In this document: positions 1,462 to 20,934 of the stretch, in pieces
Position numbering within the stretch: position 1 is the stretch's first letter
How the letters are laid out: each line of letters starts with the position of its first letter
Assembly: GCA_037176885.1 (NCBI GenBank)
Contig: JAWWNJ010000001.1
Span: 4,774,001 to 4,838,000 of the forward strand
DNA length: 64,000 nt
Source: Favolaschia claudopus
Lineage: Eukaryota; Basidiomycota; Agaricomycetes; Agaricales; Mycenaceae
Direction: 5' to 3'
The notes under the pieces: model-generated
Seen by the model: only the letters and a program-made list of their open reading frames with translations
Told to the model about the DNA's origin: nothing
Database searches by the model: none
Translations under genes and position numbers: made by a program

Positions 1462-2070
1462 AGTGTGGATTGAGGACGGAGAGTGCGGGGTCGGTTGATG
1501 GCGCAGCACAGCCACCGGATGCTGTCGGCCCGGACCGAAAGCGCGAAATCTCGCTGGAGAAAAACATATTTTCGATTTTCAGAGTTTCAGCCCGAGGGAT
1601 CTTTAGATATACTTCCTAAGGTACTTTCTATATAGTTTTGAATGCGGTAAAGTAAAGGGTGAATGTGCAGTAAGAATTCCCAAATTAGGTATTGGACTTG
1701 TCACGAAGTTCTGTCCGCTATCATATTCAGCTTGAGCCTCAGGATCTTAACAGATTGCCATCTAATCATCTCTGTGGGCACCATGATGCAAAGAAGGAGT
1801 GTCGCCCAAGTGTCGCCTTGGCCCTTGAATTGCAGCGGAAATTTAGGGGTTCGCTCTTGGTCGACTCTTTTTTTGAGAAATAGGGGATGTCGGCCTGTGT
1901 TCCGTGCCTGCCGAGACAATGTGCAGCGGTGGTGCACTGCAGAAGAGGGACTTGAACGTTTGAACTTTCAAGGAAATCACCATGTCAAGTCGACAATTTA
2001 AGATAAGATTCAATTGAGTATTTTGGAAGCGGCAGGACTGAGACTGAAAATCCTGAAATTTATTAAAGGT
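1462..2070. other. Intergenic stretch, no gene recognised
   Basis: Short open frames on both strands overlap each other and match nothing I recognise. The 5' end and terminal repeats of the Tnp2-type element that follows may lie here, but I could not identify an end. Confidence 0.4.
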
Positions 2071-2073
2071 TAA

Positions 2074-2923
2074 GCTTCCGCCTCGCAGAGGCCATATACC
2101 TGTCATGATTGTGAATCACAAATCTGGCAGGCAGACGATGGGAGAATACTCACGGGCAAGTGGGTGTCAAGAAGCACGAAGGGGAGACACAGAGACGAGG
2201 AAGAGGAGTTTATACAAGCAGGAACTCTGCCTCCGGTGAGAGCTGACCGTAATCATCCTGGAATACTTTTGACGGTCATCAGCGTTCGGATGTGACAGTG
2301 GCGAGCACGGAGACAGTGGCAGGCCCACAAGCACCGCCAACAGCGCTGACGGTGACACGCAACGAAGTGGAAACTGAGGAAGAATTGGGTGAGATTCAGT
2401 GGCGTTCAAAAGAAGATTATACACTGACTGCTTCCAGGATTCAATGCCGCTCGTCGTCGAGTTGTTTTCCTTGTATGCACACTAGTCGCATGGTTACATA
2501 TCGTATGCGGTCTTAGCCGTGACGCAAGCACCCGTGTTCTGAAGGTGTTCAGTCTCATCATTGCTATGGTGTCTCCGTCAGATACCAAATACAATGTTCC
2601 AAAAGACGTACGCACCGCAGTAAAAAACCTTTCCATCGAACCCGAGATTCGACGTTCCATCTGTTGTCCAAAGTGCTTTCGCGCATATACATTGGAAAGC
2701 CTCCCACAGGTATGCTTCGCTCGAGCCACGCCAGCTTCGAGGAAGTGCAATACACCCCTCTGGGTGGAACGGCAAACACGAGCAGGCCCGAAGATCGTTC
2801 CGCGACGTCTATATTCAACACAGCCCTTCGAGAGCTGGCTTGAGCATTTTTTGTCTCGACCAGGGATGGAGGAGCTGCTCCGGAAGTCCCACCTGCATCA
2901 GGCAAACCCACATAGAATGACGT
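2074..2923 (+). pseudogene. Tnp2-type (CACTA-like, Transposase_21) transposase, 5' part, split by retrotransposon
   Basis: Three exon pieces can be joined: about 2074-2235 (start not found; contains CHDCESQ, a CxxC pair, and WVSRSTKGRHR), 2283-2388 and 2438-2923. The introns are 2236-2282 (47 bp) and 2389-2437 (49 bp), both GTGAGA...CAG. The last exon has a hydrophobic segment (VVFLVCTLVAWLHIVCGLSR), then a CCPKCF zinc-ribbon-like motif and the WLEHFLSRPGMEELL segment. I recognise these as the N-terminal half of the Tnp2 family that is common in basidiomycete genomes. The frame stops 5 bp inside the retrotransposon LTR. If the LTR element and one ACGT copy are removed, the same frame runs straight into 20939 (IWDSPAW...), so both halves are one gene. 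The upstream ATG is not resolved. Confidence 0.8.
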
Positions 2924-4719
2924 TGTAACGCTGACACTTGAATATATCGACAGAAGTGCTAAATATAGCGCAGCAGAGAATCTACCACCAAAATATATAT
3001 ATAACACAATCAACCAACACACACAACACTACAACACAAATATCTCAACAAGATACACTCAAATGTCTCTCGAAGAGTTCGTGGGGTTCGATCCGAAATC
3101 CAGATGTCTCAGTGACGAGGATATAAGTCGACTTGCAAGCAGAACCTTGCACAAAACACGCTCTCACACACCGTAGATGGAAGTGATTCCGTCCGCGGAC
3201 CTTTCCTAAAAATAGGAACTATAAAACAGTAGGATACAAGATACCAACAAAGTTGAATATCAGGGCGAGATTGAAACAATGACCACAGACAGTTTCCGCG
3301 GCAGAATGCACAATTCTTATAGCGCCAGTTACGCTATAGACCTGAACCTCCAAATTCCAGGAACCTTTGACACTCCTTTATATAGCACAAGCCTTTCAGA
3401 CGAGGACTAATCAGATCTCTTCCGGTTATGCGCCAGCAGTCCCAACGCAATGCTTCAGCAGATGGACAGTTCCACTCTTCCTCAGACTCAGGGAGATACT
3501 AGTTCACTCTCGAGCACACGTATCCTTACAACGAAATAGACAGTCCGCGGGCAGTAGAGGCAGGCAGTTCCTTGCACACTAAGGCCACGACAAAGCTACT
3601 CGAATGCAAAGCCTCCGCAGGTGAACACTCTCGAAACAATGCTTAGATTCACACTTGAACTGAACTTCAACACAATTTCTATTAAGACAAACGAGTAGAC
3701 AATATCTTTTTATATGCCTCTACGTTGCTGCCTGAGTTCACCAACGCTGTCCAATAGACTGAGCGCGATGTCCTCCAGCTCAACGAGAAATACAGGTCCT
3801 TTTATACTAATGCCAAGAAATACATCACATAAATAGTACAGAGTAAGCAATGTCGATCCAATTGAGTAGAGAGATGGTATATTGGTATTTGGGTGTCCCG
3901 GCGGACCTTCGGCAGCCTCTTGGCTTGTCGATCCAACGGTAGAAAGTCAGCCATTATGACTCCCACGGTTGAATCACTGAATTGCGGAAGCCCGCGGAAC
4001 GCCATCATTGGTGATCCCGTCAATCCGTCACTGGCGGCAACCCTTCCGGTGGTGCCATCAACGCCTCTAATAACTCCTAAGACTATTCTTGGGACATTCC
4101 TATTCACTCGCAATATCACAGGCTCGTCTGTTGTCCAATTTATCAAGCCACCAAGTCATCCGCGCTGACTCCAATATAGAAATAGATTTCTAATGAAGTT
4201 GCCGCACTTGTCCGGCTTCAGCATCACATCATCAACTCTCCAGTCAAAGACCTCATGTCTTGCCACAACTCTGCCTTCTGATCCTAGCATCGGCATCTCC
4301 TGTATGAGATCCCTTTCCGCTGTTCCAGCCGTCTATTTATAATCGGCAGCCCGCGGCATCTGTCTTTTGACTGATGTTGACTCTGATAGCCCCCGCGGCG
4401 CCTCCTACATCCTTGTAGACCCTTGTCTAAGTCCGTAGTACACAAGTACTTGACTCTTTGTCACTCTTCTGAGGGTTCCGTTATGGAACAGATCCATAGT
4501 ACTGCAGTAGGCTATTATTATAATGCCTTGCTCCTGTGATGGGTTTTACGGTCAACAGCTCGGAGCTCACTTTGACCCTCCTTAGTGTCACCAACAGAGG
4601 TACTGACTTCCTATTGATAGTCGAGTAAGACTATAGTCGTGGCGGGTAGTTGGGTTGTTTAGGGCCGCACTTGACTTAAAATAGCCAGATATAACGCGCA
4701 AAAATGGCCAGTCGTTACA
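2924..4719 (-). repeat. 3' LTR of the Ty3/Gypsy element
   Basis: This is the direct repeat of 19139-20934. It carries six CCGCGG palindromes, at 3193, 3296, 3545, 3992, 4351 and 4393. It also has a minus-strand TATA-like sequence (CTATATAAAG, 3376-3385) and a CTAAAAATAG box at 3206-3215. The single difference from the other LTR, C/T at 4479, lies in a CpG. Confidence 0.95.
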
Positions 4720-4731
4720 TCTCCCCTTCAC
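4720..4731 (-). promoter_or_regulatory. Polypurine tract next to the 3' LTR
   Basis: Read on the minus strand the sequence is GTGAAGGGGAGA, and it abuts the LTR start exactly. This is where plus-strand DNA priming is expected in an LTR retrotransposon. Confidence 0.8.
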
Positions 4732-5552
4732 TAAATCTAGACCGTCCCCGGTCTACAGCCTGCACCAAAATCCGTGCTTATTTTTGGCTTTAAATCTAGT
4801 GGACCGCAAGGATGACAACTCCCGCGGACGTCTATTTTTAGACCAACTGCAAACTACTTTTCTGTCCCTTTTTCCTCGAGCGACTTGTTTTTAGTCAAGT
4901 CCTCCTGCACTACTCGCTAAGACGTTCCGTCTGTTAATTTAGACAGTTGCTTCCGCGGACGCCAATCATTACGGCATATGACGTCATTGACACTTTCTGT
5001 CTAAAATTTTCGGACAGGGGTTTTTCACCTCTTTTCCTTAAATTTTTCGACTCGGTCAAGTTTTCGCCGTCCTGGACTTCGCCAACCCTAATCCTAAGTG
5101 CGTTTGCACTTCCGCTTTATCTAATCTGTACCTCCGACTTATCATTCGCCGCGGCCGCCTCTGCCCTGGCAATCAGCCCTAGGTTCTTCATCAAACCTTA
5201 ATACTTGGCTTCTAATTACTGCGGCTGCGCCCTAGATTAACTTCCGTCTTCTATTCTTCCTTCAAGGTGAGTCACTGAGTATTCAATTCAGTCCTCTGAA
5301 GGCGTGGCGACTTAGAGCAATTTTCTCTAAGTCCGCTTTCCCTTATAGTTTGGGTGGGTGCGAGTTTTAGCGCCCACTTCTTCCTTCCCTTCCACCACCA
5401 CACACAGTGTCTTACACCCTGTGGCTACTCCTTGGTTTTCTAACTGGCCTTTCGACGCGCTCCTCGACGCCTACGTCACCGAGTAGCCCTCTACCTGGAT
5501 TCTCTCTGCACCTCGTCTTTCACCTACACCCACTGGTGCTCGTCGCCGGTTG
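4732..5552. other. Leader of the accessory region, upstream of antisense gene A
   Basis: No gene is recognised here. It contains CCGCGG at 4822, 4953 and 5149, and a CTATTTTTAG box at 4832-4841 beside the first. It is presumably the promoter and 5' leader of the plus-strand gene that follows, but no clear TATA box sits at a normal distance. Confidence 0.4.
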
Positions 5553-7465
5553 ATGCCCGTTAAGAAGGCCACTACTGCACCCACTCGTCGCTCTACCCGC
5601 AAGATCACCATGGCCTCTACTAAGCGTCCGCGCAAGACTAAAGCCGGTGCTAAAGTGGGCCCTGGCCGTTCCTCCGTCGTCGTCCCCAAGGACGTCGAGC
5701 CAGACCTTCCCGAATCAGAAGAGTCAGCGGCGTCGACCCCAGAGCCTCCCGCGCCTTCTTCCTCTCGCAAAATCAAGTCTCCACCCGCGGAGGAGCCTGT
5801 CGTCGTCGTTGCTGGGCCTTCGATTCGTTCAGCACTGTTTGAACCGCCGCCGCAGATCCCCTCTGACGATCCTTCTGCTGTTTTCTGGGCTCCATTCGAC
5901 AATTCTTTCGCACGCGACCTGATTCCGCTTTTTATCCACAAGCCGCCGCCGCCGTCGGTCGAGCAGGTCCGTAGCTTAGCGTTATTGACTCCAGTCCTCG
6001 TGCGTGTCTATTTTCTTTTCATCCTCAATCCAATACTTATTATTCCTTTAGAACCCTTATCGTCGTGAACACCCCAACGTGCCGTTGAATGTCGAGGCAT
6101 TCCTGTGGGCCCTCGCTCGCGCTGCTCGTCACATCGCCAAGACTATTCCCGACGTCGACGCAGCGGAGGAGTTGATCGCGCTCTACCGCGATCTTCGTCC
6201 CTCAGCCGAAATCCAGGACACCATCCTCGCCGCGGACCCGCAAGGCAAGCATTACGGTGCGGGGTTCTGCGTCCCCACCATCGTCACTGTTTCTACACGA
6301 AAGCCTCGCGCTCCCGTTTTCTCCGATAGCGAAGATTCAGACAGCGAGGAGCCACCTGCCAAGCGTCCGCGCATGGCCATCTCTCCTTCGCCTGAGCGCT
6401 CGCCGACTCCTGCTCCTGGGCCCGAGCGTTCTATGACCCCGATGGGTCCCGTCTTCGACATTACCACGCGCGCCGAGTTGATTAACATGTTCTTTGATAT
6501 TCCCGAGACGGGTAAGTCTGCGGCTTCTCCACGCTCGTCGCCTACCGTATCTCATTCTCTTTACTTCTTTCATTTCAGGTATGCCTTCCCCAGCGCACAT
6601 GAAGATTCCCACGTCCTATGTTCAAACGTCTCTTGTTCCACCAATGCTTTCCAAGATCGCCTTCCCCTGCCTCAACTGCGTGCTCAACTACGCTGAGTGC
6701 AGGCCCGTCGGTGGACGTTCTTCTGTTTGCGTTCGTTGCGCGGATCGCAAACACCAGTGTTCCCACAACTGGACGCCTCTGGAATTCAAACGGTTCGCCG
6801 AATGTATGCGTCCCTTCATCGCGGTAGCGCCCCACACCATCGCCGCCGCACTTCAACGTCTTGTGCAGGCATACGAGGATGCTCAGTTCACCAGCTTCGC
6901 CCACGTCCGCGCGCTCAACAATCTTCGCTTGCAAGCGCAAGACTCCGCCCTCACGATCTCCGGTGCGGAGCGCTCCCTCGCCGTCGAGCAGTTCAACGAC
7001 TTCTTTGTGGATAAAGAAGGCGCGGACTTGGCTCGCGACTTTGTGGCGCACGTTTTGTCGAAGAAGCCGTTTTACGAGCTGGAGCGGGACTTCGTCGCCC
7101 ACGAGGCCACTTCAAGCGCGATCCCAGTGACGAATGCTGCGGGCGAGGTAGAGAGCTATACTTATCAGCCCAAGTTCTCTGCTCGCGTCATTCCCGACTT
7201 AGATCTCAAAGGCGTTTTGAAGACGGTGGACCCTCAACTCGGTCCTGTTGCTTCTTTCGACGACCTTTCTGCCGCGGGGCCTTCATCTTCTAAGCTTGCC
7301 CCTACGACTTCTACACCTGCGGCTCCACCGTCCACTCCTCTTCCTTCGTTTGGTCCTGCCCCTTTGTTGGAGTCCCCTACTCCCAGTTCATCAAATGCGC
7401 GCAAAGGCAAGGGAGTTGAGACACCGCCCAAGGCGGACAAGGGCAAGCAGGTTGATCGCGGATGA
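5553..7465 (+). CDS. Antisense accessory protein A of the retrotransposon, Zn2Cys6-like
   Basis: The gene has three exons, 5553-5966, 6052-6511 and 6579-7465, with introns of 85 and 67 bp (GTCCGT...TAG, GTAAGT...CAG), giving about 586 residues. The N-terminus is basic (TRRSTRKITM, KRPRKTKAG), then Pro/Ser-rich and acidic with a possible nuclear signal (PPAKRPRM). At residues 322-352 six cysteines are spaced C-x2-C-x6-C-x9-C-x2-C-x6-C. That is the spacing of the Gal4-type binuclear zinc cluster, but the basic residues follow the fifth cysteine (CADRKHQC) instead of the second. The rest is helical with a Ser/Pro tail. It runs opposite to gag-pol, so its introns would not be removed from the genomic RNA. 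DNA binding is an inference; no other domain is recognised. Confidence 0.75.
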
Positions 7466-8487
7466 GCCCCCTGAATTTTGCTGGACTTCGTATTGCAAAA
7501 TTTTTCTTTCTATATCACAAATCTCATGTCGTGCTGTAGTCTCCAGCCGTAGCGTAGACCAACTCAAAAAAAAACGACTTTCTCACATATCTTACTCAGT
7601 AGTATTAGCTTTTAGTTTACTTTGCTTGTAAACCATACTACTTTGAGTTCAATGTATTCTAGCGCCCACTGGCGCTCATTGCTGCCTCTGATTCAACCGT
7701 GTGAACTTTCTTAAGAATTTTTAGTCTTAAACTAAATTCACCCAGTCGACATCAAACGGCCATCATGCCATCATCAATCTTCGGAGATTGCTGAAGACAG
7801 AATTTTGACCAAGTCCTTCGTCAAAACCCTTCTTCAACTTCTTTTGGAATCAGTCCAATTTCTCCTGTACTTCAATCAGAAGTTATTCTTGACACTTAAT
7901 TGACACTTTTCTTCAAGTCGTCAAAAAGTTTCCTCTAGTCAACTCTTCTTTTCAGTTTTCCGCGGGTCTATTTATAGCACAGTTTAAAATCTCTCTCTTA
8001 AGTACCGCGGTAGATACTCAACGTAGAGTTCTGTACTCCCGCATGTATATTCCACAAGCCTCTTGCTTAATAGAATAACCACTATCATCCCTAACTGCCT
8101 CTTTAAAATCGATCGTATAGGAACCGATCGACATTATTCAGCCTTTAAAGCTCTTCCGCAACTTGGCTTTTGCAACGCTCCAGCTCAAAATCGTCTAATT
8201 TTAGCAAAACGAAATTTCCCTGTCTCTTTATGGGTAAATTTGCAAGGCCCGCGGTGGCGCAATACCCTCCCGCGGTTGTCTGTTGCTCTATATTCTCCCC
8301 CTCACTAAAGAAAAAAGATGCGTCCTCGCATATTCAATTCAGTTAGAGGTGCAACCAACAGCCTTGGCTCGTTTTTACGATCGTAGCCGGTCATTAAAAT
8401 TTTAACCAAGCTCTCCTAGTCAAAACTATAAATTGACTTCGGTTCTCTGCTCATTTCTTCGTCGCCTACAGGCCTTCATCGCATGCC
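7466..8487. other. Spacer between antisense genes A and B, with an internal PPT-like tract
   Basis: No coding sequence is recognised. There are CCGCGG sites at 7960, 8006, 8249 and 8270, and a CTATTTATAG box at 7968-7977. A stretch at 8294-8308 resembles the 3' polypurine tract when read on the minus strand. A TATA-like TATAAAT at 8427-8433 lies about 55 bp upstream of the next ATG and may be the promoter of gene B. Confidence 0.45.
8294..8308 (-). promoter_or_regulatory. Internal polypurine-tract-like sequence
   Basis: The plus strand reads TCTCCCCCTCACTAAA, nearly identical to TCTCCCCTTCACTAAA at 4720-4735. It could act as a second (central) plus-strand primer, or be the scar of a duplication that created the two accessory modules. 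Confidence 0.45.
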
Positions 8488-10185
8488 ATGGCACCACGCT
8501 CTGCGCTCATCGAAGCGTCCAACCTTATCCTTGAAGCTGAACGCGACTTTCAACGGGTCCTCGCCCTCAGAGACTCTCTCCCTGCGGCTGTCATTCACTC
8601 TACGCTCAGCACGTTCGCAGCCGCGGCGGTTCGTCCATATTTTTGCATGCCCAAACGCTTTCCGCGCTGACTCTGTCTATTTTTAGTCGGACTTCAAACT
8701 GTTCGCTCAGTCCCTTCAGCACCCCTCCAACGAGAAGGTCGTCACTGCTCTTACTGCCGCCTCCAACGCTATGAGGGACGAGTACAAGATCTCCAAGTTC
8801 AAGATCCCTACTTCCCAGCTTGGCGCTATCGACCGCATGCTCAACAACTACCACAACGCCAAGAATAGCAAGCGCGACAAGGCCGCGGCAGCCATCAAGG
8901 GCCACCGTGCTAAGGCTCAAGTTCAACAGGTGCTTTCTCGTGTTCGTCGCATGCCTCCTGGTCCTGAACTGTCCTCTATAATGCAGGGTAAGTCTGTTGA
9001 AGTCATCGACGATTCCGGGGACGACGACTCCGCGGAGGAAGCTTCCGTCGCTGATCAGGTATTCCTCAGACGTTACGAAGATTATCTATGGTATTAACCA
9101 ACTCCAGATGGATCTCGACAAGGACGAAGGTAGAATCAACCCTCTCTATATCGCTGCCATGGGAGCCAACTATCGCGCAGGAGGCTCCTCTTTGCCCCCT
9201 GGTCTCTCCTTCCAGAAGAATAGTGCGCCCAAGGTCAAGAACGACACTGTGCGTCTATTTTTATCCCTCTGCACTTTCCTCTTCATTCACCCAGATTTCC
9301 GTTTGTTCGTCTTGCTCTTCTCACCAGCACGGCCAGGACAACTGCCCTGTCAAACCCAAGGACGGTATCCCTGCCGGTAAGGCTCCTCAAGACGACGGCA
9401 AATCCGTGCGCATCATTGACGATCCCGTTCCAGAGGACATGTTCAAAAATGTTCGTAAAGTTCCTGTGCGTTCGCCTTTTCACTTCGTTCTATTTTTATA
9501 ACATCGTTTTTATTAGGGCAAAGGCCCCAAGGCGAAGAACTCCGACACATCTTCCACTTGTCCTGACGAGGACGAGAAGGTACGTAACCCATATCCCACG
9601 GTTGAATTCTCGCTTAACGTTCATCAATTGTTGTAGATGGCGCCCGCGGAACCACTTATGGTGCGTGAAATATTCGTCAACTCTGTTTCTCTGCTTAATT
9701 CTCGCTCATAGCCTGCTTTGTCGTTGAACCCTGTGTCCAACCGCAGCAACAAGCGTGCCCGTACCGAACCGGATGACGTCGACCTCGACTACGAGCCCAA
9801 AGTCCCTGGTACGAGTTCATCTTCTCCTTGATCTAATTTCGTCTAAATTTTATTATAGACTCCATGGACAAGGACCTCATCGCCATCATGCATTCGGACG
9901 ATGTCAACAAGACCTGGAAGGTTTCTCAGAACCAACTCAAGCACTTGGACGCGCAAGGTTTCAAGGCTCGGGAGCGCTACCTCCGCCGCAACATGGCCCT
10001 CGCTTCCTTCAAGTATCGCTACTGGCTTCGCGCCTACGAGGAGATGGATGACCAGCTCGAGCAGCTCATGAAGATCCATCATGCCGACAACGAGGATCCC
10101 ATTATGCGCCCTGCTAGTTCCGCGGTATGTCTCTGCGTTTATTTTTATAGCTCTCCAGTTAAACCTTTCCGCCTTCTAGACTTGA
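8488..10185 (+). CDS. Antisense accessory protein B of the retrotransposon, nine exons
   Basis: ATG 8488 has a good context (GCCATGGC). Exons read in one frame: 8488-8628, 8687-9058, 9108-9248, 9328-9465, 9517-9579, 9637-9660, 9712-9808, 9859-10124 and a last codon plus stop at 10180-10185. All introns are 49-79 bp with GT...AG ends, most starting GTGCGT or GTACG. The product is about 415 residues, lysine- and aspartate-rich, helical at both ends, with a possible nuclear signal (NKRARTEPDD). It has no cysteine cluster and I recognise no domain. One exon is only 24 nt. The strong splicing on this strand shows that it is, or recently was, a real gene and not a chance frame. The final exon is the least certain part. 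Confidence 0.65.
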
Positions 10186-10770
10186 TCGTCCTTCCGCGGC
10201 CTATATACCTATGTGCCTTCGCTCTTTAGACACATAAACCGTCGACTCTCAGTGTTCCCTATCGTATCGTCGTGCGTTCAACCGCACATATTTGCTGTTC
10301 AACCAGCAACTGTCCAAATCCCCGGGTGTCTCGTATATACTTAGCAGTGCTTGCAATACAATTGTTTTGTCAAGCCAACTTCGTCCGATTTCCCGCAGTC
10401 TCTTGGACATCTCAGGAGTGGTAAGACTCTTTTTCCGCGCTCAGAATTCCAAAAATAGAACTCCAATCGTCCAGTTCTACTTCAACTTTTTAAGTACTTC
10501 AAGCCGCCGCGGAAGCCTTTTTGTGAACGACTCCATTGCCGTGACCGCCTACATGCTCCTTGAAGCCCTTATTCCACTGGATATTGTGCGCCTCTAAGTC
10601 TTGGCAAGCCTAGACTTCAAGTCTCACTCCTTTACTTTCCTCCGTCCCGCTTATGATCAATACAAAATCTGATTCAAATAATCACAGGCAAGACATCTCC
10701 TCAGCAGTGTTTACTATTTAAACAGTGCCTCATAGGAACGTCTTCTCCCATAATATTCTTTTCTCTTTGC
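10186..10770. other. Spacer between antisense genes B and C
   Basis: A short plus-strand frame at 10292-10597 is open but has no splice partners or recognisable features. CCGCGG occurs at 10194 and 10507. An AT-rich CTATTTAAAC near 10708 could be the promoter of the next gene. Confidence 0.35.
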
Positions 10771-11514
10771 ATGAGCATCCACGGCTTAGACGACGAAGAG
10801 AACGACGACTACTACGATTATCTCTACGACAGCCCCGACGAAATGGATCCTGCCGCAGTCCTCGCAGCCTTCGCACGCGATATCATAGTCCCTGTCAGCG
10901 AGATCCTTCCCAAGTTTCAAGCTGCCATCTATCTTATGGAAGATAATAAGGTGCGTCCTTAGTACTTGTTACTTTCAACTTCGACTGATCTATTTTCATC
11001 ACCAGCCGACTGAACAGTGCTCTTGCTGCGCCAAGAAACACAACGTCGAGCCTTGCGCTCCTACTAGTTGGGGTCCTCCTTGCCACAACTGTCTTATTCA
11101 ATTCCATCCTTGCGACTTCACCAGCAAGGACAAGATGATCGAAAGTTGGAAGAAGCGCGGAGGTCCTGGTGCGTCCATTTATAGATGTCCAGACTTATTC
11201 CTCGCTAATCCTCCCCTTCAGCTATCATCTTCGGTCGCAGCACTGTCGACCTGGAGACCATGCTTAACCAGCTTGACGAAGCTTTCGCTTACCACCATGA
11301 GTTTTCCATCAAGGCTCGCAAGGCCCAGTTCATCAAAGCGGTTAACAAGATCGATGATCTTCATGAACTCGCCTACATGCGCAAGGAACTCATCCTTCAC
11401 GGCTACGACAACTCCGCCCTCGGCTTCGTCGAGCTTCGTATGTCCAAGCTCCTTCCTCCTGGCATCTCCATTCACTCCGTCGAATCGCCTGACAAGTACG
11501 ATCTCCCATTTTAA
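10771..11514 (+). CDS. Antisense accessory protein C of the retrotransposon, Zn2Cys6-like
   Basis: Exons are 10771-10950, 11006-11168 and 11222-11514, with introns of 55 and 53 bp (GTGCGT...CAG), giving about 211 residues. The N-terminus is very acidic (DDEENDDYYDY). Exon 2 carries cysteines at residues 65, 68, 77, 86, 89 and 96: C-x2-C-x8-C-x8-C-x2-C-x6-C, close to the Gal4-type binuclear cluster, with an extra cysteine at 67. Lysines follow the second cysteine (CAKKH) and a basic stretch follows the cluster (SWKKRGG). Exon 3 is helical. The gene ends 57 bp from the stop codon of pol, so the two are convergent. Its resemblance to protein A in cysteine layout suggests a common origin or a shared role. 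Confidence 0.7.
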
Positions 11515-11570
11515 TCCTTCCGCGGAGAAGTTCTAATTTAAGATTACAGAGGCGCATACCACCACAATCT

Positions 11571-14500
11571 TTAATGCTTCCTGCGTTTGGACCGTCTAGG
11601 ACCAACCGACTCTTTTGGCTCATCGTCCGACTCTGCTTCATCATCATCGTTCCCAGTCTCCGATTCTGAGGACTCAGCCTTTTCGAAGTCTTCAGGTGTT
11701 ACCCTTATATTTACTTTATCGAAGGCTAGATCCTTTATCTTCTTTGAGCTGCGCTCCTTTGTCTTTTCCCCTTCCGCGGGAATATCGTCCACTAGCTTTT
11801 CGAGTGTCTCCGTAGATACATCAATAAACTTTTGGATGTTGAGCGGAATTTGCATTCGGCGACGTGCTAAGTATGGAACCACACGCCCCGCGGCTATCCT
11901 GTCATGGAATAACGCGCCGTTCATTTCAGCTAGGATATACGCTCCTCCCTTGGTACGTCTTATAACAACCATTGGGCCAAGGTACCTCCCCTTCTGATCC
12001 ATCTTAGAGTTCAGAGACTTCTCTACTTCAGTGTGGCGCACGAGAACCAGATCTCCCGGTTTGAAATCATAGTTTTTAATCGTATGTTCATTGTACCGTT
12101 CGAGTTTACGGACTTGAACCATTTTAGCATGATCTACACGCTTCCTCATGTGTTCAACATGGGCAACATGCTTTGCTAAAGCTCTGGCTCTTAGCCCTAT
12201 CAGTTCCGCGGTCGTCAACACTCGACCTGGTATTTCAACCAACCAAGTAGCTTCCTCAATATCCAACGGTAGAATTGGATGCGCTCCAGTCACCGCAAAA
12301 TAAGGTGAACAACCTAATCCTTTTCTAACCGTTACTCTGTCTGACCAAAGCATAACATGGAAGAACCAGAACCATTTGGATGGGTTCTTGCCAGTCGCTT
12401 TGAACAATGCCTGACGCATTTGGAAGTGTCCGCTTTCAATCTTCCCGTTCGCTTGAGAGTTGTACGGTGAAATCTGAATATTTGGTATTCCGTATTTCTG
12501 TTTCAACCATTCCACAGCTTTCTTGAACTGCCCCGCATTATCCGTAACAATCTGCTTTGGGCAACCCCAACGGCAAATGATTTCTTCAAACAGGAACATT
12601 CCAATTGCGTGAGCCGTGTCTCTCACAAGCGGTCTCGCTTCTAACCAAGAACTCAAAGAGTCCCTCGCATCAACAACTAGTCCACATTTATTGGACACTT
12701 GCCCCATTACCATTACATCGGTATGGATGACCTGAAATAGACTTGGAGTATGGGTCAAAACTGGCGGGACTTTCAACAGTGTATGTTGTCGGTTTTGGCA
12801 AGCGTCGCAAGACGCAATGTACCAAAATACATCTGCTTCTATTCCTGGCCACCAGAATCGCAGCGTAATCAATTCTCTAGTTGCATAACTTCCGCGGTGA
12901 CCCAGACTGTCGTGAGCAGCCTTCATCATGTACATGCGGTGTTCCTTGTCAACAACTAACTGATTCGCAGTGCCAAAAGATTTCTTATACATCCTCCCCC
13001 CTTTCAAAAAGAAATGTGAGGCGAAGCGCATAAAACTTCTATACTCTGCATCATCACTCATTCCCGCGGGCCTTTTCATAGGGTCCGCTAGCCATTCCTT
13101 TACCAATGGTAATTTAGCATCTCGCTTTTTCATCCAATCCGAACGATGCTCTTCATCGTAAGGCTCTCGCTTCGACTCATCCCATTTCAATTCTAAATTT
13201 GGAATCAGAGGCTCCGTCATTAAAATATACTCCGGGACCTGCTTATTCTCCTTCGAGTACGCTTCTCTGCGTGCTCTCGCCAGATTAGCTTCAGTCATTC
13301 TGGCACTCTCGCAATCACGTTGGAAATCATCCATACAAACTGCATCAACGTCCACCATTTCTGGCTGTTCCTCCTCCGACTGGAAATATCCACCTCTGGT
13401 ATCAATAAGGTGTTTAAAGTCCTCGAATTCCAACGGCTGTGGGCCTTCCGCGGAAACGTCCTCATGGTCCTCGGGAGGTTCATTTTGGTCATAACCCTCT
13501 TCCGAATTTTTGAATTGTTCATCCCCAGGGAAAGGATCTCTCCTTGATAACCCGTCGGGTGCAAACTTTTCACCAGGGACATGCTTCAGCTTAAAATGGA
13601 ACATCAAGATCTTTTCAATCCAGCGGTTAATCGTGGCGTTGGGGCCCATTCCAGGGTTTTTCAACATGCCCTTGATGTATAACGCGTCGGTTTCAACCAC
13701 AAGCTTCCTTGCTCCGAAAATCCAATAATACATGGCCTCTAGAGCTCTCATCAACCCGTACAATTCTCGTTTAGGTTGCGAATAGTTCGCCTCGGTCTTC
13801 CCTAACGTTATACTCGCAAATCGTGCAAAGTATTTCTTCTTAGGATCATCTGGGTCTAGCTGGTAGATAATAATTCCCACAGCTCTCCATGAAGTATCCA
13901 CTTGAATTACTATGTCCGAATCCCAGTCGTACCTCAGGGGTTTTAAAGCTGGGCAGTTTTTCAACCTTTCTCTAATTTTGGCCTGCGCCTCATCACAGTC
14001 CGCGGTCCATACAAAGGGAACGTCCTTCTTCGTTAACTCATTGATAGGTGCAACAATGTCGCCGTACCCTTCAATAAAGCTCCTCAGCACACCAACCGTG
14101 CCCAAGTACGCCTTCACTTGCGTGAAAGAGTCACAGGAACCCCAGTTATTAATAACGTCCACCCTCTTAGGATCGGGAATTCTTCCGCGGTAAGAGCAAA
14201 TATGCCCTACAACTTCAAACTCATCCGCACAGAGGACCAACTTCTTCCCTGAAAAAGTTCCTCCTGCATAAGCCATTCTAGTAACAACTCGATTTAAATT
14301 CTCGAGGTGTTCCCAGATAAATCTTCTAATCCCAGGATTCGCAGCAATCCTTTCCCAGTCGCCATCTTGTGTCTCGTACCTCGTAGGTCCCCCGCGGACA
14401 GGTACATCGTCTATGTAAGGGATTGTTACATGCGGCATTTCATCTCTCAAGATGGTACAAACGTCCTCGTGAAACACGGGAACAGAATTGGTCCATCCCA

Positions 14501-15794
14501 TCGGTAATTTTACTAACCTCAGTGCCCCAAACGGCGTCTGGAAGGTTGTATAATCCCTTGAAGATTCCGCTAAGTCCCTGTTATCATATCCGACAAACAT
14601 ATCCAACGAAGCTCCGCACGCTCGACCAGCAAAATGTTCTGCTAGCTTCTCCGTGGCTGGAGGTACCCCAGAGTGTTGAATTGTAACCTCATTCAACCTC
14701 TCTAACGCGTGTACAATTCTCAATGACTTTCCATCTTTCTTTATCACCGCAAAAATAGGTGACCTGTAGGACGAGTTGGATGGTTCATACACCCCAGCAT
14801 CTAATTTTGACTTGATGATGCGGCAGAACTCTTCAAAATGTCCAGGCGGAATTGGAATTTGCGAGCATACCCATGGTGTATGTGGTACCACAGGCATATC
14901 AACGGGCGGGAAATATTCATGTTTGAATTGCCCACGCTCATCCTCTTCCCAGGCGAAATGCTCGTTATGCAACATCATAAAATGATGAAGCAACTTCATC
15001 TCTTCAGGCAATAAGAACCCAGTGTTATGAGTCTTTTCAAATGCCTCCATTCGCTCCGCGGTATATCTTCCTACTGGGTGAATCTCAGGAATATCCGTTT
15101 CTATTTTCGGCATATCCTTCAAAGGGTCCCCCGTGATATTCCGCACAATCCTGAACTTCTCATCCACTTTTCCAAGGATAGGCTTAATCTTTTCCGCGAC
15201 CGGTTTGTACTTCTTAGTAGCAAATACTCGCTGTTTTCCCATAGAGATGCCCAAATTTCCAAAAATAAATTGCTCTCTTGGTACTTCCGGCACCGGTACT
15301 TCAAAATTCAGCTTCCCCTTCGCAGCAGGGACTGTCTTAGCTCCCTCTGCCTTCGAAGTCTTCTTAGACTTCTTCTTCTTCTTTTTCTTCTTGTATTTTC
15401 GCTTTCTACGGTTTACTTTCGGCGCACGGTCCGCCGCCTCCGCGGAACTATCTTTATCACCATTCACGCGGGAATCTCGCTCCATGTAGGCAAACGCAGA
15501 CTTAGCCGAGCTATCACCCGGATTAGGTGCATGCTTTCCACGGTTCGATTTTCTCGGGCTTCCCGGGCTTCCAGATTCCGTGAACAAGAAGACATCTGTG
15601 CCTTTATCTTTCTCTACCTGCCCCGCGTATTGATTCAACAATACACTAGCATTCTTATCTCCTGCAAATGCGTCCCTAGACGCCAATAAATATGCCATCG
15701 TCCTGTCATCCTGCGTAACAACATCCCCGTCTTTCGGTAAACCATATCCTGTGCACACCAACTCCCCATGGTCGTTGTACTCAAACGCGGCCAT
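11571..15794 (-). CDS. pol: Pol polyprotein: reverse transcriptase, RNase H, integrase (Ty3/Gypsy)
   Basis: I place the start at ATG 15794-15792, which overlaps the protease stop codon as TAATG, giving 1407 residues. An N-terminal extension of about 290 residues includes a run of lysines (near residues 135-145). Reverse transcriptase follows, with the YIDD active site at about 460-463; RNase H has D632, E677 and D703. Integrase has the zinc-binding HHCC (AHDSLGH...CDAC, about 960-1000) and the DD35E triad: D1027 (HTD), D1086 (TDN) and E1121 (GKIES). After this comes a GPY/F-like module (GRYLGPMVVIRR). The tail is acidic and ends in SKRRKH. No chromodomain is seen. The frame is open throughout, with all catalytic residues present. 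It presumably reverse transcribes the element RNA and integrates the cDNA. Confidence 0.93.
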   Translation of the reverse strand: MAAFEYNDHGELVCTGYGLPKDGDVVTQDDRTMAYLLASRDAFAGDKNASVLLNQYAGQVEKDKGTDVFLFTESGSPGSPRKSNRGKHAPNPGDSSAKSAFAYMERDSRVNGDKDSSAEAADRAPKVNRRKRKYKKKKKKKKSKKTSKAEGAKTVPAAKGKLNFEVPVPEVPREQFIFGNLGISMGKQRVFATKKYKPVAEKIKPILGKVDEKFRIVRNITGDPLKDMPKIETDIPEIHPVGRYTAERMEAFEKTHNTGFLLPEEMKLLHHFMMLHNEHFAWEEDERGQFKHEYFPPVDMPVVPHTPWVCSQIPIPPGHFEEFCRIIKSKLDAGVYEPSNSSYRSPIFAVIKKDGKSLRIVHALERLNEVTIQHSGVPPATEKLAEHFAGRACGASLDMFVGYDNRDLAESSRDYTTFQTPFGALRLVKLPMGWTNSVPVFHEDVCTILRDEMPHVTIPYIDDVPVRGGPTRYETQDGDWERIAANPGIRRFIWEHLENLNRVVTRMAYAGGTFSGKKLVLCADEFEVVGHICSYRGRIPDPKRVDVINNWGSCDSFTQVKAYLGTVGVLRSFIEGYGDIVAPINELTKKDVPFVWTADCDEAQAKIRERLKNCPALKPLRYDWDSDIVIQVDTSWRAVGIIIYQLDPDDPKKKYFARFASITLGKTEANYSQPKRELYGLMRALEAMYYWIFGARKLVVETDALYIKGMLKNPGMGPNATINRWIEKILMFHFKLKHVPGEKFAPDGLSRRDPFPGDEQFKNSEEGYDQNEPPEDHEDVSAEGPQPLEFEDFKHLIDTRGGYFQSEEEQPEMVDVDAVCMDDFQRDCESARMTEANLARARREAYSKENKQVPEYILMTEPLIPNLELKWDESKREPYDEEHRSDWMKKRDAKLPLVKEWLADPMKRPAGMSDDAEYRSFMRFASHFFLKGGRMYKKSFGTANQLVVDKEHRMYMMKAAHDSLGHRGSYATRELITLRFWWPGIEADVFWYIASCDACQNRQHTLLKVPPVLTHTPSLFQVIHTDVMVMGQVSNKCGLVVDARDSLSSWLEARPLVRDTAHAIGMFLFEEIICRWGCPKQIVTDNAGQFKKAVEWLKQKYGIPNIQISPYNSQANGKIESGHFQMRQALFKATGKNPSKWFWFFHVMLWSDRVTVRKGLGCSPYFAVTGAHPILPLDIEEATWLVEIPGRVLTTAELIGLRARALAKHVAHVEHMRKRVDHAKMVQVRKLERYNEHTIKNYDFKPGDLVLVRHTEVEKSLNSKMDQKGRYLGPMVVIRRTKGGAYILAEMNGALFHDRIAAGRVVPYLARRRMQIPLNIQKFIDVSTETLEKLVDDIPAEGEKTKERSSKKIKDLAFDKVNIRVTPEDFEKAESSESETGNDDDEAESDDEPKESVGPRRSKRRKH

Positions 15795-17170
15795 TACTTC
15801 TCCCCCATCTTTGAGTTCCTCGAAGACTTGCAAAAATCCGGTTTGGTCTCCGCGGGAGCTGTCTGGACTGGCTTTCCTGTGTCTCGATCTATCTTGACCC
15901 CCCTCTGAGAGGTTGCAAAGGTATTTTTGTTCCCTGTGCGCGGATCCGTAATTGTGATCTCGACTTCGCCGGTTCTCTTGCTCGCAAACACAGCTTCTGA
16001 CAAAATTTCGAAGGGGCGTCCCAAAAGAACTTCATAAGGCACCTCATCAATAATATGAACTTGAAGGTGCATCACTATCCCTTCAAAATTAAACGGCACA
16101 TTTATAGCCAAGCCCAAGGTGGACTGAATCTGGCTATTCGCAGCAACCATCTCACAGACTATATTTGTATTCCAAGTCAAACCAATTTCCTTGGCCAACT
16201 GAGCATTCATTGATACAATCTGCGAGCCGCTATCCGTAATGGCTTCCACATACTTGCCATTCACTGACGGATGAATGCATCTGAGCTTTGCAGAGGAGCC
16301 CGCGGCCGGGACTTTAACAGCTTTCGCTTTTTCTCCCTCTGGTAGAGACTCATAGTATTGAAGGATAGGGTCCCCACAAATAACGCTTCCCTCCGGTAAA
16401 TCATGATCATTGGAGGTAACCAATTCAGGGAACGTGTCAAACATCAACACCGACACAGTCTTTCCATCCTCATCTACAACTTCACAAGTTGTTGTCTCAA
16501 CTCGAACGTTATCCTCAGCTTCACTTTCATCATCCGCGGGGCTCTCAGAGTCTGAGTCTTCATCCTCAAGCACCCTTTGGACGACAAAGTTGTGCACCTT
16601 GGTAGGAACAATATCACCAGAAGTAGTCTTCATAAATTTAGCTTTGTTCTTCCGCGGACCCCCAATCTCAAGAGTTTTCCGGAGCATCTCGTTACTATCC
16701 AGCAATGTGCCTATTTTGACTGGTATCACAGTTTCCCGAATAGCGTCTGCGATCTCCGCGGTAGCTTTGTCTCGCCGCTGAGTATCTTTAGGCACTCTTG
16801 TTCTTCGTGAACCTGATGACCCTTGGCCATGTTGCTCCTCTGCTGGTTTTCGCGGGAACGCGGGTCGTACGGGAGGGTCAGATAGAGGTTTCACATCCTT
16901 GAACGGAAGTTCTTCCTTCTGATTTCTATTTCTGACACCAACCGACTCGTCCTCAGAATCACTGACTTCTTCAACGGTGACTTTCCTCGTAGGTTGAGTG
17001 GAACGCTTCGGTAGCAACACTTCAACTCTATTCTCTCTGGCTGGCTTAATGGGCACCTTCCCATTATCTCTCTCGGCTACTGTTTCTTTTTGTTGGTTTT
17101 TCTGTTTTTCTGGAACGCGGTCTTTGGCTTTCGGATCCTCAGGAGCTTTCCGCGAGCGAGTCTCCCTCAT
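15794..17170 (-). CDS. Retroviral-type aspartic protease, separate frame
   Basis: The frame is -1 relative to gag. Its first ATG (17170-17168) lies five bases after the gag stop (TGATTCCGATG). The product is about 458 residues. The first 200 are charged and probably disordered. The active site is in EAITDSGSQIVSMN (DSG at about 313-315), and LLGRPF further on fits the hydrophobic-hydrophobic-Gly motif of these proteases. It would cleave Gag and Pol. The stop codon overlaps the pol start by one base (TAATG). A protease that is in neither the gag nor the pol frame is unusual for Ty3/Gypsy elements, where it is normally the front part of Pol. Confidence 0.88.
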   Translation of the reverse strand: MRETRSRKAPEDPKAKDRVPEKQKNQQKETVAERDNGKVPIKPARENRVEVLLPKRSTQPTRKVTVEEVSDSEDESVGVRNRNQKEELPFKDVKPLSDPPVRPAFPRKPAEEQHGQGSSGSRRTRVPKDTQRRDKATAEIADAIRETVIPVKIGTLLDSNEMLRKTLEIGGPRKNKAKFMKTTSGDIVPTKVHNFVVQRVLEDEDSDSESPADDESEAEDNVRVETTTCEVVDEDGKTVSVLMFDTFPELVTSNDHDLPEGSVICGDPILQYYESLPEGEKAKAVKVPAAGSSAKLRCIHPSVNGKYVEAITDSGSQIVSMNAQLAKEIGLTWNTNIVCEMVAANSQIQSTLGLAINVPFNFEGIVMHLQVHIIDEVPYEVLLGRPFEILSEAVFASKRTGEVEITITDPRTGNKNTFATSQRGVKIDRDTGKPVQTAPAETKPDFCKSSRNSKMGEK

Positions 17171-17175
17171 CGGAA

Positions 17176-19044
17176 TCACTGAAAATCCTTCTGCGCCGCC
17201 ATAAACTGCGCTATCTTTGCAACAGACTCCTCGATTCTGTCCAGTCTATCCGCGGTGGCAGGAGAGTCTGACTCTTCCCTAGATTCACTCGCAAACGACT
17301 CCGCGGCCGGTGCAGTGGGGTCACTAGCATAATAATACTCAAACGCCTCTTGGTTATAATACACCTGAGTACGATTGTTATAGTAATCCCGCACTTTGGT
17401 CATGTAGCTCTTATTCTTGGGTTCCCGCGGCAAAGCCTTTCCATCATAGAAGAACATACGCCCATCTTTCAGGATTAGCAGGCCCCCAGTAATATCATCC
17501 CTTCTGTGCTTGCAGTCCGCAACATAATGCGAAGGATCCCAACAATAGTAACAGCCCGTAGGCTTGCCTTCTCTAAGAGGCGGCCTATCCGGTGTATACG
17601 ATGGCCTGTCTGGCCCGTATTCTCTTCTTTCCATAGGACGACTAGGATAATTGGAGGTCCCCTTTGTCAAGGCTTCATGCATCTTAGACATGACCTGTTT
17701 TTGGTCGGTCGTAAACTTGTCCAGATGATTAGCAAGGGTCTTTTCCATTTTGTCCTCAATCTCCTTATTCGACTGGAGAATTTTCTCCTCTCTGGCTTTG
17801 GAATCAGCCTCAAGCTTCTCCAATCTAGCCTTCAACTTGGCAGCTTCATCTCCACCCTCTGAACTACCCGAAAATAGAACAGCCTTCCTCTTTGTATCCG
17901 AGGGAGTTGTGAAGAAAATAGAGTCATTACTTTTGATCAACGACTTCAGTATTTCCTCAAAGTCTGCCCATTCGTACAGGTCATCAGGATGAGTGTAGGC
18001 CGGTTTATAGGCCTTTCCTTTGTTCGCAGGCAGCGCTTCATATTCAGATTTTGCTCGCTGATACGAAGTAAGTTCCGTCGGACTTCTGGCCAGCACGATA
18101 TTGCGAAGAGTCTCCCTGAAGGTAGGGTGAATACCTTTCAAAAAGTCTTGCGCTAACTCGCGCCTTGAGAGCATCTCTCGGTCCTTGTTCATCACTGCAA
18201 CTCGTCCGCGGAACTTTCGACAATAGTTGGCAAATTCAACTTCCTCATCTATTCTCACTGGACGGTCTGTATACTGTTTCAAGAAAGACGCCCAGCCCGC
18301 GCGGGAACCTTTCTCTACTGCACGAACTTCAGGATAAGCATCCATCAATTCCGCCTTCCATTCCTCATACGTTCCATTCGTATAGGTGGGCAAAGCTTGC
18401 CATTCTTTCTGCACTTTACTGTTCGCATAGTGGTGTGCTATCCACTTCTTGCTCTGCTCACTAAGCTTTCCTTGCTTCGCGATGATATCTTCGATCCCTT
18501 CCAAATACTTGGGCAAATCCCCTGTTTCGTCATCGAATTTCAGGTTATGTCTCCCAAAAATATCCGGGATCTTGCTCTTATCAATCTCGTCGTAGGTAGC
18601 CATAGTGTTTGTTTGTGGGGGGTTTATCTTGGCTACGGAGTTCGAAATAGCCTCGATGGTCTGATTCAAATGATCAGATAGCTCGCCGTCCGAGTGGGTT
18701 GCGTGTCCCTCAAAGGGTAATGCTGCAGAAGTATTTATAACTTCCGCGGAACGCGCTCTCCTTCTCTTCTTAACTGGTGACGAACTAGACGACCGTCCTG
18801 TACTGGAATTTTTGGTCGTACGCGGTTTTCTGCCAGACGTCGAGGGTCCCCAATTTACAGACTCGGGTATAAGACTGTTCCTTGAAGTCGACGTTTGAGC
18901 GGGTTCTTGTAGTGCAACCCTGGCTTGCTCTAGCAAACTCCTGGAACCTGCTCCTGTATTTAATGGAGACGGGCTACGCTGGTGTCTGCCTCTCCTCGAC
19001 GTCTTTCTAGTACGAGGATTTGTTTGGGCTGGAATTCTCGACAA
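17176..19044 (-). CDS. gag: Gag capsid/nucleocapsid protein
   Basis: The product is 622 residues, starting about 75 bp after the candidate primer-binding site. The first 120 residues are basic and Ser/Arg-rich (VKKRRRARSA). A helical capsid-like region follows (about 150-400, including EWKAELMDAYPEV and LAQDFLKGIHPTFRETL), then a coiled coil (about 400-460). A CCHC zinc knuckle sits at C498, C501, H506 and C511 (C-x2-C-x4-H-x4-C), the RNA-binding motif of nucleocapsid. The protein should assemble virus-like particles and package the element RNA. The stop codon is directly followed by the protease start. Five CCGCGG palindromes lie in this gene in all three codon phases. Confidence 0.9.
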   Translation of the reverse strand: MSRIPAQTNPRTRKTSRRGRHQRSPSPLNTGAGSRSLLEQARVALQEPAQTSTSRNSLIPESVNWGPSTSGRKPRTTKNSSTGRSSSSSPVKKRRRARSAEVINTSAALPFEGHATHSDGELSDHLNQTIEAISNSVAKINPPQTNTMATYDEIDKSKIPDIFGRHNLKFDDETGDLPKYLEGIEDIIAKQGKLSEQSKKWIAHHYANSKVQKEWQALPTYTNGTYEEWKAELMDAYPEVRAVEKGSRAGWASFLKQYTDRPVRIDEEVEFANYCRKFRGRVAVMNKDREMLSRRELAQDFLKGIHPTFRETLRNIVLARSPTELTSYQRAKSEYEALPANKGKAYKPAYTHPDDLYEWADFEEILKSLIKSNDSIFFTTPSDTKRKAVLFSGSSEGGDEAAKLKARLEKLEADSKAREEKILQSNKEIEDKMEKTLANHLDKFTTDQKQVMSKMHEALTKGTSNYPSRPMERREYGPDRPSYTPDRPPLREGKPTGCYYCWDPSHYVADCKHRRDDITGGLLILKDGRMFFYDGKALPREPKNKSYMTKVRDYYNNRTQVYYNQEAFEYYYASDPTAPAAESFASESREESDSPATADRLDRIEESVAKIAQFMAAQKDFQ

Positions 19045-19118
19045 CCCAGGAAAGTCCCTTCTCTAGACTCTCCCAACTACAGCAACGCGTTTTGTTTATC
19101 AACAAATTACCACCGAAC

Positions 19119-19136
19119 CCCTCGCGGTGGGCTCCA
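19119..19136 (-). promoter_or_regulatory. Candidate primer-binding site
   Basis: Two bases after the 5' LTR the minus strand reads TGGAGCCCACCGCGAGGG. TGG is the expected complement of a tRNA CCA end. I could not identify the matching tRNA. Confidence 0.55.
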
Positions 19137-19138
19137 GA

Positions 19139-20934
19139 TGTAACGCTGACACTTGAATATATCGACAGAAGTGCTAAATATAGCGCAGCAGAGAATCTAC
19201 CACCAAAATATATATATAACACAATCAACCAACACACACAACACTACAACACAAATATCTCAACAAGATACACTCAAATGTCTCTCGAAGAGTTCGTGGG
19301 GTTCGATCCGAAATCCAGATGTCTCAGTGACGAGGATATAAGTCGACTTGCAAGCAGAACCTTGCACAAAACACGCTCTCACACACCGTAGATGGAAGTG
19401 ATTCCGTCCGCGGACCTTTCCTAAAAATAGGAACTATAAAACAGTAGGATACAAGATACCAACAAAGTTGAATATCAGGGCGAGATTGAAACAATGACCA
19501 CAGACAGTTTCCGCGGCAGAATGCACAATTCTTATAGCGCCAGTTACGCTATAGACCTGAACCTCCAAATTCCAGGAACCTTTGACACTCCTTTATATAG
19601 CACAAGCCTTTCAGACGAGGACTAATCAGATCTCTTCCGGTTATGCGCCAGCAGTCCCAACGCAATGCTTCAGCAGATGGACAGTTCCACTCTTCCTCAG
19701 ACTCAGGGAGATACTAGTTCACTCTCGAGCACACGTATCCTTACAACGAAATAGACAGTCCGCGGGCAGTAGAGGCAGGCAGTTCCTTGCACACTAAGGC
19801 CACGACAAAGCTACTCGAATGCAAAGCCTCCGCAGGTGAACACTCTCGAAACAATGCTTAGATTCACACTTGAACTGAACTTCAACACAATTTCTATTAA
19901 GACAAACGAGTAGACAATATCTTTTTATATGCCTCTACGTTGCTGCCTGAGTTCACCAACGCTGTCCAATAGACTGAGCGCGATGTCCTCCAGCTCAACG
20001 AGAAATACAGGTCCTTTTATACTAATGCCAAGAAATACATCACATAAATAGTACAGAGTAAGCAATGTCGATCCAATTGAGTAGAGAGATGGTATATTGG
20101 TATTTGGGTGTCCCGGCGGACCTTCGGCAGCCTCTTGGCTTGTCGATCCAACGGTAGAAAGTCAGCCATTATGACTCCCACGGTTGAATCACTGAATTGC
20201 GGAAGCCCGCGGAACGCCATCATTGGTGATCCCGTCAATCCGTCACTGGCGGCAACCCTTCCGGTGGTGCCATCAACGCCTCTAATAACTCCTAAGACTA
20301 TTCTTGGGACATTCCTATTCACTCGCAATATCACAGGCTCGTCTGTTGTCCAATTTATCAAGCCACCAAGTCATCCGCGCTGACTCCAATATAGAAATAG
20401 ATTTCTAATGAAGTTGCCGCACTTGTCCGGCTTCAGCATCACATCATCAACTCTCCAGTCAAAGACCTCATGTCTTGCCACAACTCTGCCTTCTGATCCT
20501 AGCATCGGCATCTCCTGTATGAGATCCCTTTCCGCTGTTCCAGCCGTCTATTTATAATCGGCAGCCCGCGGCATCTGTCTTTTGACTGATGTTGACTCTG
20601 ATAGCCCCCGCGGCGCCTCCTACATCCTTGTAGACCCTTGTCTAAGTCCGTAGTACACAAGTACTTGACTCTTTGTCACTCTTCTGAGGGTTCTGTTATG
20701 GAACAGATCCATAGTACTGCAGTAGGCTATTATTATAATGCCTTGCTCCTGTGATGGGTTTTACGGTCAACAGCTCGGAGCTCACTTTGACCCTCCTTAG
20801 TGTCACCAACAGAGGTACTGACTTCCTATTGATAGTCGAGTAAGACTATAGTCGTGGCGGGTAGTTGGGTTGTTTAGGGCCGCACTTGACTTAAAATAGC
20901 CAGATATAACGCGCAAAAATGGCCAGTCGTTACA
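19139..20934 (-). repeat. 5' LTR of the Ty3/Gypsy element
   Basis: Direct repeat of 2924-4719. In the sense orientation this LTR drives gag-pol. CCGCGG sites are at 19408, 19511, 19760, 20207, 20566 and 20608. T at 20694 replaces the C of the other copy. Confidence 0.95.
19591..19600 (-). promoter_or_regulatory. TATA box of the 5' LTR promoter
   Basis: The minus strand reads CTATATAAAG, about 450 bp before the inner LTR end. It fits a Pol II promoter for the genomic RNA and puts the U3/R boundary near 19560. Confidence 0.6.

Follow-up and report, generated by a model that had tools for sequence, protein, structure and literature searches.

A palindrome selected along a Ty3/gypsy retrotransposon of Favolaschia claudopus, and a zinc-cluster-like protein as its candidate reader

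A stretch of 64,000 nucleotides from the mushroom Favolaschia claudopus (contig JAWWNJ010000001.1, positions 4,774,001 to 4,838,000; hereafter the window) contains a Ty3/gypsy long terminal repeat (LTR) retrotransposon, along which the six-base palindrome CCGCGG is strongly enriched and its sites are under selection. The palindrome depends on the element family, being CCGCGG in some families and TCGCGA in another, and it occurs together with a zinc-cluster-like gene on the strand opposite to that of gag and pol. Judging from the sequences, CCGCGG is probably the target of a DNA-binding protein encoded by the family itself, most likely the Zn2Cys6-like product of gene A, perhaps acting together with, or replaced by, the product of gene C. 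The element's own protein A (or C) would bind CCGCGG throughout the element, while selection would scatter the palindrome across LTRs, spacers and genes, enabling the protein to coat the whole element and distinguish it from host DNA. Related families would have switched the palindrome, for example to TCGCGA in family IV, and binding may free the element from silencing by the host, in the way that VANC proteins act on the VANDAL transposons of Arabidopsis. By analogy with that system, anti-silencing seems the likeliest purpose, although with less certainty than the binding itself.

Enrichment of the exact word

An earlier note on this DNA had reported 51 CCGCGG sites within the element and about 14 in the other 46 kb, and these numbers proved correct, the window holding 65 in all. 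Six of the sites are counted twice owing to the redundancy of the LTRs; with one LTR removed, the non-redundant element (16,215 bp) has 45 sites, roughly one per 360 bases, as compared with 3.0 expected under a first-order Markov model, and CCGCGG is its most enriched 6-mer. The window outside the element shows 14 against 12.4 expected under the same model. A fourth-order model leaves CCGCGG outside the 12 words listed, because the word raises the counts of its own inner words. Dinucleotide shuffles of the non-redundant element (n = 200; mean 3.3, maximum 9) never reach the observed 45, nor do synonymous-codon shuffles (2000 per gene; maximum 4 in each gene) reach the counts in gag (5 versus 0.39), the protease gene pr (5 versus 0.52) and pol (11 versus 0.87). 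Markov counts and shuffles together rule out codon or amino acid preference, or composition, as the cause. The earlier note had argued in the same direction from gag, whose sites do fall in all three codon phases (3, 1 and 1); in gag, pr and pol taken together, 15 of 21 sites are in phase 1. Its description of sites in LTRs, spacers and genes of both strands also holds, whereas its extension to every gene and to the leader does not, as gene C and the 94 bp from gag to the LTR are without a site.

The enrichment is limited to the exact word, the other 15 words of the form NCGCGN having 0–8 copies each. When CCG and CGG are separated by x nucleotides, the counts peak at x = 0 with 45 copies, as compared with 0–8 for x = 1–13. 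The flanks of the sites lean to CTTCCGCGGAAG, and no tandem repeats were found in the element. Spacing between sites is more even than random in family I (coefficient of variation 0.70, P = 0.008) and family II (0.52, P = 0.0006), two of the five families (I–V) that were sampled. Loop–loop contacts in RNA, serving dimerisation or packaging, might be imagined for a word that is self-complementary and lies on the genomic RNA strand; however, the flanks are not mutually complementary beyond a palindromic lean at the first base, no stem is seen, and sites are also present in the half of the element whose genes are on the opposite strand, all of which makes such a role very improbable. Clustering of CCGCGG as a genome-wide feature was rejected, since pairs 30–60 bp apart (896) are rarer than in the reversed control (1435). 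Elsewhere in the genome (G000 C1:1832472-1832596), CCGCGG recurs roughly every 40 bp in a short array that seems to have no relation to the element.

Selection on the sites in copies and related families

Gene A has 124 matches in the genome, at 26–100% identity. The 30 nearest loci (L005–L034) span about 4 kb each and include the window's own copy as L005; CCGCGG ranks first among the 6-mers in 28 of them, second in L028 and lower in L020, and it exceeds expectation (Poisson P 0.005 or less) in 39 of the 41 gene A-relative loci fetched (L005–L042 and L044–L046). Of 2253 candidates for pol, 33 copies were scored, and all of these are 99–100% identical; about 69 of the 120 matches to the last exon of gene C reach 95% identity or more, as counted by eye. 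In L039–L041, gene A is 26–31% identical to that of the window, while gene C is 98–100% identical. Because gene A can differ so far in copies whose pol and gene C are 98–100% identical to those of the window, the stretch around it (window about 5491–7857), whose DNA cannot be aligned to L039–L041, is an exchangeable cassette.

Conservation of the sites between diverged copies, beyond that of their surroundings, had been proposed as a check, and the sites were indeed kept better than other words. Across 13 pairs of sequences that are 78–91% identical, 118 of 144 CCGCGG cells are kept, as compared with 1262/3197 for other 6-mers with two CpG, 230/787 for all-G/C 6-mers and 24716/69420 for the rest; the cells are not independent, as the pairs share sequences. 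CCGCGG ranks first in conservation among 285 6-mers (reverse complements merged, at least 60 cells each). Between families I and II, whose pol is 79% identical as protein and 74% as DNA, CCGCGG survives in 14 of its 19 cells in pol, and the remaining two-CpG words in 28 of 135. Family II is itself enriched: its DNA that cannot be aligned to family I (24.3 kb from five loci related to each other, L035–L038 and L042) has 55 sites versus 8.2 expected, and a 10-kb stretch with pol and gag (L043) has 28 versus 1.5.

An abundant unrelated gypsy element served as a control (pol 26% identical to the window's; 99 copies scored). It has no CCGCGG in any of five loci, where 1.8–2.0 are expected in each, and no Zn2Cys6-like pattern there. 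An isolated family II LTR has landed inside one of its copies (L048 3431-5270), and this LTR carries 9 sites in 1.84 kb versus 0.14 expected, against none in the surrounding 6.16 kb, where 2.2 are expected. L049 duplicates L048, family II LTR included, and was excluded from the control count; L047 gave no match to the element.

More distant families were reached by a search with the mushroom pol P0085, in which 36 of 2229 candidates were scored and three loci fetched, one each for families III, IV and V, with pol 55–56% identical to the window's. Three further loci (L058, L060 and L059) were placed in family IV by their cluster exon. Family IV is enriched in TCGCGA (L056, 22 versus 3.1; L058, 14 versus 2.0; L060, 12 versus 1.8; L059, 7 versus 2.0) and has almost no CCGCGG (1, 1, 0 and 0, respectively). 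In the pol of L056, TCGCGA occurs 10 times versus 1.0 in synonymous shuffles (maximum 5, n = 1000), and over six locus pairs of this family TCGCGA is retained in 31 of 59 cells and the remaining two-CpG words in 212 of 896, several of the losses being C-to-T. An excess of GATAGC/GCTATC and of TATCACGA near TCGCGA was also seen in L056, L058 and L060; a longer motif may exist, of which these words would be fragments or variant forms. In family V (L057), which uses CCGCGG within the word CGCGGAA, the latter is found 27 times versus 1.4 and CCGCGG 12 times versus 2.0; in its pol, the synonymous shuffles (n = 1000) give 0.86 CGCGGAA against 9 observed (maximum 5) and 0.35 CCGCGG against 3 (maximum 3). 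Family III (L055) has neither palindrome in excess, and its top word over positions 347-6593 is CGAGGA (29 versus 8.3, on both strands; in pol 13 versus 4.6 in synonymous shuffles, maximum 11, n = 1000), a weaker and non-palindromic signal that is unexplained and is perhaps a third motif. As regards the question of whether related elements share the enrichment, family II does, while families III and IV show no excess, the latter having TCGCGA instead; for families I and II, neither of the two outcomes that the earlier note had named as refuting its claim came about. Identities in pol group the families as ((I,II),(III,(IV,V))), and its alignment has no site shared between the two groups (I with V, 0 of 12 CCGCGG; I with IV, 0 of 9 TCGCGA).

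The earlier note had left two explanations side by side, namely selection for a protein-binding site and a mutational bias specific to the element. The first is supported by the excess over shuffles, the excess of conservation, the enrichment in unalignable sister-family DNA and the different palindrome of a related family. The second found no support, given a single exact word and a peptide, TAE, which stands at one place of pol in all five families and is encoded with CCGCGG in families I and II only. More generally, a mutational, repair or composition bias would fit the presence of the word in each larger part of the element, but words one base away are not enriched, the TAE codons contain the word in no family but those that use it, the sites resist change, and the dinucleotide and synonymous shuffles fall short of the counts; bias as a sufficient cause is refuted by the conservation test, and as an explanation it has next to no probability left.

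Element architecture and candidate readers

The features of the element are collected in Table 1. It is a Ty3/gypsy LTR retrotransposon, with near-identical TG..CA LTRs, a short target site duplication, and a protease preceding reverse transcriptase (RT), RNase H and integrase, in that order, according to Pfam matches. The LTRs differ by one mismatch per 1796 bp (at 4479) and ACGT is duplicated on each side, so that the insertion is very young. The reading frames of gag, protease and pol are open; Pfam gave no match for the open reading frame (ORF) at the gag position, and RVT_1 scored under its Pfam cut-off in pol. No TET match was obtained among the ORFs given a Pfam scan, and a scan of IMG/VR with pol gave no relative. 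Three ORFs with F-box-like domains lie in the window's flank (41527-43044, 43863-45371 and 49058-50002).

Table 1. Features of the retrotransposon in the window, followed by two divergent gene A-relative loci located on other contigs
Feature	Position	Strand	Remarks
Whole element	2924-20934		51 CCGCGG; gag-pr-pol on minus strand, three intron-bearing genes on plus strand
3' LTR (in gag-pol sense)	2924-4719	-	6 CCGCGG; ends TGTAACG...CGTTACA
Dispersed CCGCGG	3193-20613		51 sites; mean gap about 350 bp in non-redundant element
Half with plus-strand genes and spacers	4720-11570		18 CCGCGG: 8 in A and B, 10 in spacers
Gene A	5553-7465	+	586 aa; exons about 5553-5966, 6052-6511, 6579-7465; 3 CCGCGG
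Gene B	8488-10126	+	multi-exon, limits approximate; 5 CCGCGG; pieces matched in family II
Gene C	10772-11514	+	about three exons, limits approximate; 0 CCGCGG
pol ORF (RT, RNase H, integrase)	11571-15833	-	1420 aa; 11 CCGCGG; Pfam PF17917, PF17919, PF17921
Aspartyl protease (pr) ORF	15794-17179	-	461 aa; 5 CCGCGG; Pfam PF13975, PF13650
gag-position ORF	17176-19044	-	622 aa; 5 CCGCGG; zinc-knuckle-like CYYCWDPSHYVADC, read by eye
5' LTR (in gag-pol sense)	19139-20934	-	6 CCGCGG
L045	C92:473039-478038		putative fragment
L046	C47:171213-175212		putative rearranged older copy

The splice model of gene A is open, with a single stop at its end, and the protein database contains models of 576–597 aa for this gene from Favolaschia claudopus. 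The Zn2Cys6 signature is CX2CX6CX(5-12)CX2CX(6-8)C, and it is present in gene A, as CX2CX6CX9CX2CX6C, as well as in an exon of families IV and V. The six cysteines of gene A are invariant across 15 sequences with identity down to 28%. A protein database search with the gene A alignment, in which the best 7996 candidates by shared words were scored, gave seven homologues, all from Favolaschia claudopus. Gene C encodes a second cysteine-rich cluster (CX2CX8CX8CX2CX6C) and has a conserved last exon; a likeness of this exon to a family IV ORF, noticed by eye, is not claimed, BLASTP having given no alignment. The opposite-strand Zn2Cys6-like exon is present in families I, II, IV and V, and a search of the 10 kb available for family III (L055) gave none. 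In a single profile comparison, the exon of families IV and V was homologous to gene A of families I and II (82%, E 1e-5) over 50 columns, extending past the cysteines. CCGCGG consists of two CGG half-sites placed back to back. That one kind of element in one host has two selected palindromes calls for a lineage-specific reader, for which the elements themselves encode candidates. We infer that the palindrome is bound by protein A or protein C.

Several observations weigh against this reading. L045 (2 CCGCGG versus 1.95 expected) and L046 (1 versus 0.6) are not enriched, and yet the cluster pattern is intact in both. Only short pieces of L045 can be aligned to family II, with no match to B or pol. 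L046 is rearranged; in its aligned part all 3 and 4 CCGCGG of its relatives L037 and L038 are altered, and CpG has become TG or CA, the commonest outcomes, at 33 of 118 places versus L037 and 28 of 121 versus L038. We read both as putative relics, the former a fragment and the latter a rearranged older copy, which is not proven. An excess of C-to-T change was also noted in L046. Outside the cassette, L039–L041 have CCGCGG as their motif like other copies despite their diverged gene A, and their unalignable cassettes hold 6 CCGCGG versus 2.7 expected. For family I, in which gene A varies while the motif is constant, either the DNA contacts have been kept, or gene C encodes the reader, or a host factor does the reading. 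Between families I and II, most sites of gag and pr are at new places, and there is no clear excess of kept cells in gag (4/10 versus 34/95) or pr (2/9 versus 6/54). In families IV and V the evenness of spacing does not reach significance, and the evidence from families III and V is that of one locus each. The 46 kb flanking the element in the window contain one Zn2Cys6-like pattern as well, and because of this the cluster pattern alone is weak, non-specific evidence. The clusters score below the cut-off of Pfam Zn_clus PF00172 (at best 15.5 bits versus 21), the predicted structures are poor (pLDDT 44 and 48), and a sequence search of solved structures gave no good match to the clusters.

Two alternatives deserve consideration. 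Yeast Rsc3 is a host regulator of the CGCG-binding zinc-cluster kind. Factors of the host, for instance such a regulator opening chromatin, might bind the sites, and the cluster proteins of the element would then do something else. This would agree with the CGCG core common to the words, with a family I motif that stays constant while gene A varies, and with the host zinc-cluster regulators Pdr1/Pdr3 known in fungi (in the part of PMC5539612 consulted). However, TCGCGA is the word of family IV, which has almost no CCGCGG, the reverse is true of families I and II in the same mushroom, and the abundant unrelated gypsy element has neither; opposite palindromes in one host would need two or more host factors, each exploited by a single lineage, and we regard this alternative as unlikely. 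The other alternative retains an element-encoded protein as the binder and changes its purpose, which could be the activation or limitation of transcription from both strands, the protection or retention of cDNA, or the guidance of integration. Genes on both strands make a regulator of both plausible, and the site density in the LTRs (6 in 1.8 kb) equals that elsewhere, but a promoter role needs no sites every 350 bp in pol and gag, and such purposes have, in our estimation, a small chance of being the correct ones.

Comparison with known systems

If the element's own protein does read the palindrome, own-family recognition through a repeated motif has arisen more than once, in VANDAL DNA transposons and in a fungal LTR retrotransposon, and selection for binding sites is able to shape codon usage over the full length of a mobile element. 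It is possible, and we propose it tentatively, that mushroom retrotransposons have an anti-silencing system independent of that of plants, in which an opposite-strand zinc-cluster protein and an element-wide palindrome change together as families split. A ready test set is at hand in the families, whose two palindromes are distinguished by the outer base pair and which include, in IV and V, homologous 31-residue clusters. Among the matches listed in literature searches on the mechanism and the host, no title or abstract opening described a retrotransposon with such a system. Ty3/gypsy elements with a homologous pol come from other mushrooms and from metagenomes; homologues of pol from Mycena chlorophos (P0028), Armillaria ostoyae (P0085) and Lentinula edodes (P0096) are among them, with 60–65% identity over the region searched and the same Pfam domains.

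Fungal DNA transposons encoding TET/JBP dioxygenases are described in the consulted part of PMC12730594. They resemble the present case as fungal mobile elements with an additional gene whose proposed role is to oppose DNA methylation, and they differ in that TET is encoded there, whereas no ORF scanned here matched it. The Zn2Cys6 regulators Pdr1/Pdr3 have TCCGCGGA as a consensus site, according to the portion of PMC5539612 seen; they share with the element the six cysteines in Zn2Cys6 spacing and the CGG half-sites placed back to back without a spacer. Unlike the proposed reader, Pdr1/Pdr3 are host regulators of few promoters, and the clusters of the element score under the cut-off of the Pfam family.

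The closest parallel is the Arabidopsis VANDAL family, in which the family-encoded VANC is a proven motif reader with an anti-silencing function (PMC5735166 and PMC10398659, in the parts consulted). Both systems have dense, family-specific short motifs and related families with different motifs, and a family-encoded reader is proven there and predicted here. VANDAL elements are, however, Mutator-like DNA transposons with a Mutator-like transposase beside the protein, whereas the element described here is a fungal LTR retrotransposon with opposite-strand genes, a reverse transcriptase and a retroviral-type integrase. The VANC motifs lie mainly in non-coding tandem repeats in one orientation, as those excerpts describe them, while the palindromes here occupy coding as well as non-coding sequence, 21 of the 45 non-redundant sites being in gag, pr or pol and 8 more in the spans of A and B. 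The candidate readers here are zinc-cluster-like, unlike VANC.

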